From a virus, in IMG/VR virus record IMGVR_UViG_3300046804_001915, positions 1 through 32,339 of that record: a stretch of DNA of 32,339 nucleotides; one strand, 5' to 3'. Numbering within the stretch: the first letter of the stretch is position 1; each line of letters opens with the position of its first letter. Positions 8,307 to 32,339 of this stretch are shown here, piece by piece. The notes beneath the pieces are model-generated. The model searched no databases and was not told the origin of the DNA. It saw only the letters and a program-made list of their open reading frames with translations. A program made the position numbers and the translations under genes.

Positions 8307-8485
8307 AGACATTTAAACAATTTCTTGATGAGCTCTATATTAGAGATACATCAGGTAAAATTATAGGAATTAAAAAACAAAAATACCGTGGTGCTGATAT
8401 GAAAATGCATAAAGCATATCCAGGCAAAAGTGCTAGCTCTGGTGGTGGAAGCGGTGGTGGAGCATCAGGAAGCGGAGACGAATAA
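8300..8485 (+). CDS. Small basic protein with capsid-targeting-like N-terminus and Gly/Ser tail
   Basis: 61 residues beginning MVKTFKQFLDE, a second copy of the capsid-targeting-like peptide, with an L-D-E cleavage site after Glu11. Cutting there would leave a peptide of about 50 residues: a Lys/Arg-rich middle (KIIGIKKQKYRG) and a flexible Gly/Ser tail ending in Asp-Glu. A GGAG ribosome site lies 9 nt before the ATG. The stop codon overlaps the start of the Dps gene (TAATG), so the two are translationally coupled. A DNA-binding packaged peptide is the simplest reading; this is inference from the N-terminus and charge. Confidence 0.6.
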   Translation: MVKTFKQFLDELYIRDTSGKIIGIKKQKYRGADMKMHKAYPGKSASSGGGSGGGASGSGDE

Positions 8486-8919
8486 TGGAACAACTATTAG
8501 AAAAACTTAAAGTATTACACGCTACTAATTTCTCATTCTATCTAAAATTGCATTTCTTTCACTGGAATGTAACAGGTCCTAATTTCCCACAATATCATGA
8601 ATTCTTTGAAGAACTCTACACTGATGTGTGGGGTGCAGTGGATGGTATTGCTGAGCACATTAGAGCAGTAAAAGGTTTTGCACCCGGGTCGTTATCACGT
8701 TTTATGGATCAGACTATGATCAAAGATCAGCTTGATGTAGTTCCTGCAGAACAAATGCTTTCTATTGCACTACAAGATAATGATAAAGTAATTGATGCAT
8801 TAACTCAAGCTTATCTCTCAGCTGAACAAAGCGCAGAGCATGGATTAGCTAATTTTCTCCAAGATCGTATCGATATCCATAAAAAACATGGCTGGATGCT
8901 AAGATCAACACTTGGTTGA
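8485..8919 (+). CDS. dps: Dps-family ferritin (DNA/iron protection protein)
   Basis: 144 residues, slightly shorter than bacterial Dps (about 155-170) because the N-terminal tail is missing. The ferroxidase residues align with E. coli Dps without gaps at a constant offset of 25: His26, His38, Glu42 (Asp in E. coli), Asp53 and Glu57, within HWNVTGPNFPQYHEFFEE and DGIAEHIRAVKG. Known Dps proteins form 12-subunit shells that oxidise Fe(II) with peroxide, and many bind DNA. The Lys-rich N-terminal tail used by E. coli Dps for DNA binding is absent. It is coupled to the capsid-targeting-like gene upstream and sits just before a late promoter, which places it among virion genes. Protection of DNA from oxidative damage in the cell or in the capsid is inference. 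Confidence 0.9.
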   Translation: MEQLLEKLKVLHATNFSFYLKLHFFHWNVTGPNFPQYHEFFEELYTDVWGAVDGIAEHIRAVKGFAPGSLSRFMDQTMIKDQLDVVPAEQMLSIALQDNDKVIDALTQAYLSAEQSAEHGLANFLQDRIDIHKKHGWMLRSTLG

Positions 8920-13442: not shown

Positions 13443-14033
13443 CTACCTTATATCTTGCTTCTTTAATTCAACACAAGTACCACATACACCGCAAGGTATA
13501 ATTTTATCCTCTTCATAGATTGGTCTACGACAACTCCAGAACATATTGCGTATTGATTCTGGTAACATCTCATAAATCTCACGTTTACTCATATTCATTA
13601 CTGGGTATATCTTTTCTATATCAGTAAATGCTGATAGTATCTTATTAGCTCTTATTCGTCTTTCTTCTAGACTATGATTAGCATCATTAGCCTGCATACC
13701 CATTGCAATCTTTTTTATATCCGGATTGACACTTGCAATATAACCAGCAAAATAATTCATAGTATCAGTGTCATGCATGAAATACTTTCCGTATGATTGT
13801 GAGCCTATTTCACTTTCACTATATTCAAAAGTAAATCCTAGATTACGCAATTGTTTAAGAGCAATATCAACTGCAATTGCTTCTGCTCTATCTCTGTTTT
13901 CAATATTTCTATTGTGAACATGATGTATGTGTAGAGTATAATCTTTATATTCTAGATCTGTTAATAGTTTGTAGATCATTCCCAGGCTATCAAGACCACC
14001 TGAGTACATGGCTAGGATTGTTTTCTTTTCCAT
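13443..14033 (-). CDS. QueC-like PP-loop enzyme (7-cyano-7-deazaguanine synthase family)
   Basis: 196 residues. The N-terminus has the PP-loop ATP-pyrophosphatase motif SGGLDS (residues 11-16). The C-terminus has four cysteines in a QueC-like zinc arrangement (FWSC, about ten residues, then CGVCGTC). QueC makes preQ0 from carboxy-deazaguanine, ammonia and ATP. Length is near that of bacterial QueC (about 220). No QueD, QueE, FolE or DpdA partner lies in the window, so preQ0 would need host or distant phage enzymes, or the protein uses another substrate. It overlaps the upstream methyltransferase-like gene by 22 nt and faces the virion genes head-on, as an inserted two-gene unit would. Confidence 0.75.
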   Translation of the reverse strand: MEKKTILAMYSGGLDSLGMIYKLLTDLEYKDYTLHIHHVHNRNIENRDRAEAIAVDIALKQLRNLGFTFEYSESEIGSQSYGKYFMHDTDTMNYFAGYIASVNPDIKKIAMGMQANDANHSLEERRIRANKILSAFTDIEKIYPVMNMSKREIYEMLPESIRNMFWSCRRPIYEEDKIIPCGVCGTCVELKKQDIR

Positions 14034-30188: not shown

Positions 30189-30417
30189 TTATACTTTTAT
30201 AGATACTAAGACTAATAAAGAGTTCGACATCTCAATGCCGATCTCTGAATACGATGCCTACGTAGAAAATAATCCACATCTTCAACAAGTATTAACCGCT
30301 CCTAATATAGTTGACCCAACCAGGTTAGGCCTTAGAAAGCCTGACTCTGGTTTTCGTGATGTTCTAAAGCGTGTAAAGAAGGCTAGTGGGAGGAATAATA
30401 CTATCAACACATGGTAA
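30181..30417 (+). CDS. Small FmdB-like-start phage protein
   Basis: 78 residues beginning MANYTFIDTKTNKEFDISMP, resembling the first strand of FmdB-type regulators but without their zinc cysteines, then LTAPNIVDPTRLG and a basic end (DSGFRDVLKRVKKASG). I recall such proteins in marine T4-like phages, where the function is unknown. It overlaps the previous gene by 8 nt. Confidence 0.6.
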   Translation: MANYTFIDTKTNKEFDISMPISEYDAYVENNPHLQQVLTAPNIVDPTRLGLRKPDSGFRDVLKRVKKASGRNNTINTW

Positions 30418-30427
30418 GAGGTACCGC

Positions 30428-31231
30428 ATGGAAAGACTATCTCGCGCTGAAAAGAGACTATTAAAACAACAAAAGCGTCAGGAGCAAAAACAAACAAAGA
30501 ATAACCTCGAACTAAAAACAATATCACCTAAGACACTAAACCAGGAAAAAGTATTCAAAGAATTTATTAACGGTAAAAATCTCCTCATTCACGGTCTTCC
30601 AGGTACAGGTAAATCATTCATTTCACTTTACCTAGCATTATCTGATATAGAAGAGTTTAGAGATTATAATAGTGTCACAATAATACGCTCCGTAGTCCCT
30701 TCCCGAGATATGGGCTTTCTTCCAGGCTCAATAAAAGAAAAATCTAAAGTATATGAAGCACCTTATCAAGCCATCTGTACAGAACTTTATAACAGAGGTG
30801 ATGCTTACGAGATCCTAAAACAAAAAGGGATCATAAATTTTGAGACATCATCTTTCTTAAGAGGTCTCACTCTCGATAATACAATTATTATTGTCGATGA
30901 ATGTCAAAACATGACATACCAGGAACTTAACACAATCATCACACGTGTAGGTCATAATTCAAAGATTATTTTCTGTGGAGATTATAGACAAACTGATCTA
31001 AAATGGGATGATGAAAGAGAAGGTATACACAAGTTTATGAAGATACTTTCTAAGATGCCTAAGTATTTTTCATGCATAGAGTTTAATGAGAATGATATTG
31101 TAAGGTCTGGTCTCGTAAAAGATTTTATAATTAAGAAGAATTTAATTGAAAACGGAACTATAATACGTAATGCTTCAGCAAATTTTAGCCCAGCGCAAGC
31201 ACTTCACGCACCACCTCCCAAAGATCCTTAA
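30428..31231 (+). CDS. phoH: PhoH-like ATPase
   Basis: 267 residues from the ATG at 30428 (AAGAGGT ribosome site). A basic N-terminal helix (MERLSRAEKRLLKQQK) precedes the ATPase domain: Walker A GLPGTGKS at 56-63, IRSVVPSRDMGFLPGS, Walker B IIIVDECQN, and IFCGDYRQTD sensor region. PhoH proteins are common in marine phages; biochemical roles suggested for the family include RNA helicase or RNase-linked activity. The last 62 bases overlap the nuclease gene in another frame, and the residues there (SANFSPAQALHAPPPKDP) look unlike the rest. Confidence 0.88.
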   Translation: MERLSRAEKRLLKQQKRQEQKQTKNNLELKTISPKTLNQEKVFKEFINGKNLLIHGLPGTGKSFISLYLALSDIEEFRDYNSVTIIRSVVPSRDMGFLPGSIKEKSKVYEAPYQAICTELYNRGDAYEILKQKGIINFETSSFLRGLTLDNTIIIVDECQNMTYQELNTIITRVGHNSKIIFCGDYRQTDLKWDDEREGIHKFMKILSKMPKYFSCIEFNENDIVRSGLVKDFIIKKNLIENGTIIRNASANFSPAQALHAPPPKDP

Positions 31232-31874
31232 TTCAACAGAAGTGCTTGAACAAGTCAATACAGACACCGGTAGGTACTATAAAACACCTACCGGTGAACT
31301 CTATCCATCAGTGACAACTGTTACAGGATTGTTTGGTGAAGAAGGAATTAAATTGTGGCGTGCTAAAGTAGGTGAAGAAGAAGCAAATAAAATTAGTAGC
31401 CTAGCAGCTACCAGAGGTACACGCATACATCAACTATGCGAAGACTATCTTAATAATGCTGACATCGATCTTACTAAATATAATTTCAAAGATGCTTTGA
31501 ATTTTGAGCAACTAAAATTAGAATTAGATAGAAATATTGACAATATTCATTTACAGGAAGTACGTCTCTATTCTGATTATATAAAGATGGCTGGCACAGT
31601 AGATTGTGTTGCTGAGTGGAAAGGTAAACTAGCTATTATCGATTTTAAAACAGCTAAAAAACCAAAGAACAGAGATTACATATTAAATTACTTCTGTCAA
31701 GCTACCGCATATGCTATTATGTACGAAGAGAGATACAATATACCAGTTTCAAGAATTGTAATTTTAATATCAGTTGATGATGAACCACCTCAGGTGTTTG
31801 AGGATTATAGAGATCGTTATGTTAAACCACTAATGGAAGTTAGAGAAAAATATAAAGAAAGATATGGTATCTAA
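31170..31874 (+). CDS. PD-(D/E)XK nuclease (RecB/Cas4-like exonuclease)
   Basis: 234 residues. His87 in RIHQLCEDYL fits the RecB-family motif I. Glu130, Asp145, Asp158 and Lys160 (EVRLYSDYIKMAGTVD and IIDFKTAKK) form the PD-(D/E)XK catalytic set. YPSVTTVTG near residue 45 is typical of this phage exonuclease group. It probably trims or repairs DNA ends during recombination or degrades host DNA. The start at 31170 overlaps PhoH by 62 nt and has no clear ribosome site, so its first 20 residues are uncertain. A perfect 11-bp inverted repeat lies at codons 32-43. Confidence 0.82.
   Translation: MLQQILAQRKHFTHHLPKILNSTEVLEQVNTDTGRYYKTPTGELYPSVTTVTGLFGEEGIKLWRAKVGEEEANKISSLAATRGTRIHQLCEDYLNNADIDLTKYNFKDALNFEQLKLELDRNIDNIHLQEVRLYSDYIKMAGTVDCVAEWKGKLAIIDFKTAKKPKNRDYILNYFCQATAYAIMYEERYNIPVSRIVILISVDDEPPQVFEDYRDRYVKPLMEVREKYKERYGI
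31265..31296 (+). other. Perfect 11-bp hairpin within the nuclease gene
   Basis: CACCGGTAGGT (31265-31275) and ACCTACCGGTG (31286-31296) pair perfectly around a 10-nt loop. It begins 34 nt after the PhoH stop, the same offset as the hairpin after the reductase gene. Coding for TGRYYKTPTGE is kept. No T-run follows. Confidence 0.7.
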
Positions 31875-31875
31875 A

Positions 31876-32043
31876 ATGTTTGGACTAGGTAAAATACTAT
31901 CAAAAACAAGAAATACTAAAGTCGTTAAGACTAAATCAGGCTCTTCTACTTTTACTAAGATTAAAAAACAAAATGGTAAAACATCTTGGTATAAATCTGG
32001 TGGTACTGGTAGCTTTAAAAAGCGTGGACGTAAAGCAAAGTAA
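31876..32043 (+). CDS. Tiny Lys-rich basic protein
   Basis: 55 residues, about one third Lys/Arg (MFGLGKILSKTRNTKVVKTK, ending FKKRGRKAK) with Ser/Thr/Gly between. It starts 1-2 nt after the nuclease stop with no strong ribosome site, probably by re-initiation. Charge suggests nucleic-acid binding. Codon use matches neighbours. No family recognised. Confidence 0.5.
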   Translation: MFGLGKILSKTRNTKVVKTKSGSSTFTKIKKQNGKTSWYKSGGTGSFKKRGRKAK

Positions 32044-32069
32044 CAGTTGACTTTATATTAAATATATAC

Positions 32070-32077
32070 TATAAATA
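32070..32077 (+). promoter_or_regulatory. Late promoter box TATAAATA for the tmRNA, overlapping a sigma70-type promoter
   Basis: TATAAATA (32070-32077) matches the T4 late consensus. TTGACT (32047-32052) lies exactly 17 bp before its first base, so TTGACT-N17-TATAAA also reads as a host sigma70 promoter. Either would start RNA close to 32084-32088, just before the tmRNA acceptor piece. Confidence 0.6.
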
Positions 32078-32149
32078 AAGAGCTGATGTTGTTGACATCT
32101 AGTAGAATAGACATACTGGACGAGGGTGCGATACCCTCCGCCTCCACCA

Positions 32150-32227
32150 AAGGTACATCGCGATAACTCGTTATACCCACATGAAGTACTGCATGACGCT
32201 AAAGGGTGAACTCGGTGTATCTTTGAT
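32150..32227 (+). other. tmRNA intervening (processed) segment
   Basis: 78 nt between the encoded CCA and the mature 5' end of the coding piece. Its ends (AAAGGTACATC and GGTGTATCTTT) pair over 11 positions with two G-U pairs, extending the acceptor stem into a hairpin. This is the expected shape of a precursor cut on both sides to give two RNA pieces. Confidence 0.7.
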
Positions 32228-32291
32228 GGGGGCGAAATAGGATCGACAGGTGTAGTAAAGACAAGATCGAGACTGAAGCAAACTCGTAAAT

Positions 32292-32333
32292 GCAAACGAT
32301 AACTTTGCACCTAGCTTAGCACTCGCTGCCTGA
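32292..32333 (+). other. tmRNA proteolysis-tag reading frame
   Basis: Thirteen codons from the resume codon GCA to TGA give ANDNFAPSLALAA, preceded in the product by the Ala carried on the tmRNA. The ANDNFA start is usual in alphaproteobacterial tags, and the final LAA is the ClpXP/ClpAP-type recognition end. Confidence 0.88.
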
Positions 32334-32339
32334 GCATGA

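Follow-up and report, generated by a model that had tools for sequence, protein, structure and literature searches.

The window analysed here is the complete 32,339-base virus record of an uncultured, T4-like phage from water, and approximately its last 300 bases are taken up by a circularly permuted tmRNA gene. The best explanation, which we hold with good though not full confidence, is that this is a working (as predicted) ssrA gene of alphaproteobacterial type, belonging to a T4-like aquatic phage lineage and acting through the steps proposed below. Searches with the Rfam 15 models returned RF04321 (tmRNA_permuted) over the full model at positions 32087-32333 with 115.4 bits (E 4e-22) and RF01849 (alpha_tmRNA) at 32043-32339 with 112.1 bits (E 5e-30), the gathering scores being 47 and 50 bits, respectively. 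ARAGORN also reported a permuted tmRNA with the tag ANDNFAPSLALAA at the same gene; the end coordinate it gave, 32424, exceeds the last base of the record and is to be disregarded. A chance origin of the match can be excluded because of these E-values and the covariation found in relatives. The results confirm the claim of the initial annotation that the phage encodes a permuted tmRNA with a tag, and the alpha_tmRNA search proposed there as a check gave a clear match.

The gene shows a permuted order, with the CCA end first, followed by a spacer and then by the 5' end and the tag, all on the plus strand. The acceptor (3') piece covers positions 32080-32149 according to both Rfam models and the fold, its 5' end at 32080 being guessed from the promoter. 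It contains a T-arm (GAGGG-TGCGATA-CCCTC, 32122-32138), read directly from the sequence, and the 3' strand of the acceptor stem (CGCCTCC, 32139-32145), followed by ACCA up to 32149. This strand pairs at all seven positions with the 5' strand GGGGGCG (32228-32234) and the third pair is a G-U (G3-U70), exactly as had been noted earlier. The 78-nt length given for the spacer (32150-32227) also held; in the predicted minimum-energy fold of the precursor the spacer ends pair and lengthen the acceptor stem. The spacer ends are complementary in relatives as well, while its middle is not conserved, and the spacer was rejected as a separate feature because it is unconserved apart from these pairing ends. 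The coding (5') piece begins at 32228 and includes the tag reading frame (32292-32333), detected by ARAGORN, which encodes ANDNFAPSLALAA with its ALAA-type end followed by a TGA stop; the same tag is found in the related loci L002, L003 and L004. The 3' end of this piece is lost at the contig end (32339), where the RF01849 match stops at model position 276 of 355. The pseudoknot and the end of the coding piece would lie beyond this point; they are present in the full-length model matches of relatives, but because of the cut the window's own copy could be damaged downstream.

Whole permuted tmRNA genes, some of them with the same tag, were found in IMG/VR relatives with scores of up to 138 bits over the full RF01849 model. 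In an alignment of 17 phage tmRNAs, acceptor pairs 4, 5 and 6 vary by compensatory Watson-Crick changes, giving stems such as GGGCCGG/CCGGTCC (L018), GGGGACG/CGTCTCC (L004) and GGGGGTG/CACCTCC (three loci). The G3-U70 pair is kept in all 17, a constancy that arises partly by construction since the stem-locating script demanded this pair, whereas the compensatory changes do not. No alternative stem arrangement had to be forced by the script, and the stem positions agree with Rfam. Among the fetched DNA of the 80 closest exonuclease relatives, a permuted tmRNA lies near 58, usually about 2.5 kb or less downstream, a count in which many loci are near-duplicates and some of those without a tmRNA end shortly past the exonuclease. 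The compensatory stem changes, the intact tags on 54 viral contigs described below and the conserved place together indicate that the gene is maintained. As some close relatives have no detectable tmRNA, the gene is not essential to the phage group.

The tag was searched for with a degenerate DNA pattern for ANDNFAPx[LF]A[LF]AA in viral contigs and in 84,980 bacterial and archaeal species genomes. This pattern matched 54 viral contigs and none of the bacterial and archaeal genomes; the scan itself works, because a shorter ANDNFAP pattern proved to be common in alphaproteobacteria. A stop codon directly follows the pattern in all 54 viral tags, with the frame and the ALAA end kept. The tRNA-like motif GATCGAC was present upstream in 42 of these loci, and in 38 the script also located an acceptor stem, fully paired and with G3-U70; the remaining loci are apparently cut by a contig end or fall outside the script's pattern. 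Relatives of PhoH, the exonuclease, gp33, gp59 or gp32 accompany the tag in 46 of the 54. By this distribution the tag type is best regarded as a property of the phage lineage, even though it begins and ends with elements usual in alphaproteobacterial tags, and as far as the searched genomes go the earlier description of the tag as the phage's own is borne out. The occurrence of ANDNFAPx[LF]ALAA tags in viruses but in none of the sampled bacterial and archaeal genomes appears to be a new detail.

This virus-only tag family raises a testable question, namely whether such phages only add to the tmRNA supply or alter the tag as well. It could be supposed that the main task of the phage tmRNA is to mark proteins with the phage's own tag, altering the choice of protease or adaptor, rather than to add rescue capacity. 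The restriction of the tag type to viruses speaks for this, as do the quite different tags of related phages, e.g. ASNDNVPYSAMKVAA. Against it, the ALAA end is the usual signal for proteolysis in bacteria, and many alphaproteobacterial tags begin with ANDNFAP. We consider this reading improbable, and give an equally small chance to the related proposal that the lineage keeps a tag unlike every sequenced host tag so that tagged proteins would meet a different fate.

The tmRNA gene is preceded by two conserved neighbours, a PhoH-like gene (30386-31231, plus strand; phrog_170, E 2e-79) and a PD-(D/E)XK exonuclease gene (31170-31874, plus strand; phrog_298, E 9e-72, PF12705). A 55-aa basic reading frame lies between the exonuclease and the tmRNA (31876-32043), and in L018 a sequence resembling it is fused to the exonuclease frame. 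In related contigs the order is exonuclease, tmRNA and then gp33, gp59 and gp32. The window also encodes a T4 RNase H-like exonuclease, with the T4 RNase H C-terminal domain, a DNA primase, a ribonucleotide reductase and tail fibre genes; the RNase H domain, the primase and PhoH place it in a T4-like genome context. Of seven related records that were searched, three carry Gp23, the T4 capsid family. No integrase was matched in these seven records, an absence that is weak evidence as the records may be fragments. These data are in line with the lytic T4-like setting proposed initially. No match was obtained by megablast of window positions 1-24000 against phage records. Two further genes of the window are a QueC-like gene (13443-14033, minus strand), which could belong to a 7-deazaguanine DNA modification or a queuosine pathway, and a gene for a Ferritin/Dps-like protein (8485-8919).

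Directly upstream of the gene a box TATAAATA (32070-32077, plus strand) was read, both in the window and in relatives, which fits the T4 late promoter TATAAAT (PMC3037559) as well as a sigma-70 -10 element. A -35-like box, TTGACT (32047-32052, plus strand; five of six matches to TTGACA), is situated 17 nt upstream of it. TATAAATA precedes all 17 aligned phage tmRNA genes, and a TTGA box is found at 17-nt spacing in 13 of these loci and at 20-nt spacing in two more. The motif alone is not significant, as the window has three copies where chance would give 5.8; its conserved position is. At other NATAAATA sites of the same loci a good -35 box is rare. Since the site fits both promoter types, early sigma-70 and late readings are both possible. 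The conserved TTGAC-17-TATAAATA arrangement, a candidate promoter at phage tmRNA genes, appears to be a new detail.

These features bear on the possibility that the gene is a passenger, or what is left of a host ssrA gene after, for example, integration at ssrA. The ssrA gene is a known integration site (PMC9004378) and the window's copy stops at the contig end. In relatives, however, the gene is complete, its changes are compensatory, a conserved promoter stands before it and its place among T4 core genes is fixed; with no integrase match in the seven related records either, a remnant is very unlikely. Slightly less likely still is a decoy that blocks the host tmRNA. The tag-less tmRNA of mycobacteriophage DS6A is on record as inhibiting the endogenous tmRNA when expressed in E. 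coli (PMC11915505), but that RNA has no tag frame, whereas the frame, stop and LAA end are kept in the related viral copies here. That the gene closes the record would also suit a chimaera of phage DNA with a host ssrA gene, a negligible prospect that is refuted in general because the gene order recurs in other contigs, which match the window across the upstream genes as far as the tmRNA and go on to gp33, gp59 and gp32.

For the preferred reading, a functional phage ssrA gene, the following course can be proposed. Transcription would start from the gene's own promoter (32047-32077), using the sigma-70 polymerase of the host and perhaps also the late machinery of the phage. As in other members of the family, the precursor would fold with the spacer lengthening the acceptor stem, host tRNA-processing enzymes would excise the spacer, and the mature RNA would then consist of two pieces joined by base pairing. 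The G3-U70 pair observed in the stem should allow charging with alanine by the host alanyl-tRNA synthetase. SmpB was found in none of 14 related viral records, including records of 157 and 164 kb, and host SmpB is probably used; it would deliver the tmRNA to ribosomes stalled on cut mRNAs, where the tag ANDNFAPSLALAA would be added. The LAA end of this tag would suit proteolysis of the ClpXP type. The presumed benefit for the phage is the recycling of ribosomes during mRNA destruction. If the gene functions as predicted, a widespread group of T4-like aquatic phages would have tmRNA-based ribosome rescue as a permanent component, encoded at a fixed place next to the genes for late transcription and served by a promoter of its own.

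Aquatic phages were already known to carry such genes, which are common in this phage group. In 2022 Buchholz and colleagues reported a two-piece ssrA from Melnitz, a T4-like methylophage; of the 133 distinct phage tmRNAs in their count, 53 were two-piece, and 50 of these came from marine or aquatic phages (PMC9004378). With these numbers, the frequency among exonuclease relatives given above and the case of phage Mosig, the suggestion that a permuted tmRNA is unusual in a T4-like phage could not be upheld. Mosig (Pelagibacter phage Mosig EXVC030M, MT647606, Kyanoviridae) is a cultured, T4-like pelagiphage; an SsrA, recognised by Rfam as a permuted tmRNA, is annotated there in the corresponding slot, between a PD-(D/E)XK nuclease gene and a gp33-like late transcription gene. 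It differs in its tag, GEDNFALAA (ARAGORN) versus ANDNFAPSLALAA, and in DNA sequence, similarity to the window extending over 44 nt only. Mosig also has a manA RNA motif (L097:7383-7590), which follows the tmRNA at a distance of about 3 kb downstream. Methylophilales phage Melnitz EXVC044M, which was not reached by blastn of the Mosig ssrA against the phage collection and was compared from its paper, is also a T4-like aquatic phage with a two-piece alpha-type tmRNA, situated directly upstream of a transcription coactivator gene (PMC9004378). It differs by a glutamine riboswitch reported by its authors in the 3' domain of the tmRNA (PMC9004378); the window gave no match to this riboswitch at Rfam gathering scores, the record ending inside the coding piece. 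With the Caulobacter-type two-piece tmRNA of alphaproteobacteria (RF01849) the gene shares its order, the G3-U70 acceptor stem, the tag type and the model match, while differing in being phage-encoded and in a tag body that was found in none of the searched bacterial genomes.

An alphaproteobacterial host, which had been deduced from the permutation, is plausible. It does not follow from the permutation itself, because Melnitz carries an alpha-type ssrA that mismatches its gammaproteobacterial host of the OM43 clade (PMC9004378). The host cannot be named from the tag either, as the exact tag-type search of bacterial genomes gave none. Recent capture of a host gene, also proposed initially, is unsupported: when plasmids and 385 genomes from the class of an alphaproteobacterium were searched by blastn, the alignments were confined to short conserved tRNA-like and tag-start stretches, so that no ssrA donor was identified.

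Several minor observations were made on the related loci. The permuted tmRNAs of L003, L004, L005, L007, L012-L016 and L018 are missed by ARAGORN and detected by Infernal; in most of these loci the T-loop reads GGCAGTA or GGCGGTA, as it often does in the alphaproteobacterial genes examined. Counts of phage tmRNAs based on ARAGORN only are probably too low. A second kind of coding piece, with a tag ...ASNDNVPYSAMK(V/I)AA and a different 3' end, occurs in L008, L009, L010, L015, L019 and L020, joined to acceptor pieces that resemble those of the first kind. In L007 and L009 the 95-nt spacers are 99% identical while the acceptor and 5' pieces are 75% identical, which suggests that recombination takes place inside phage tmRNA genes.
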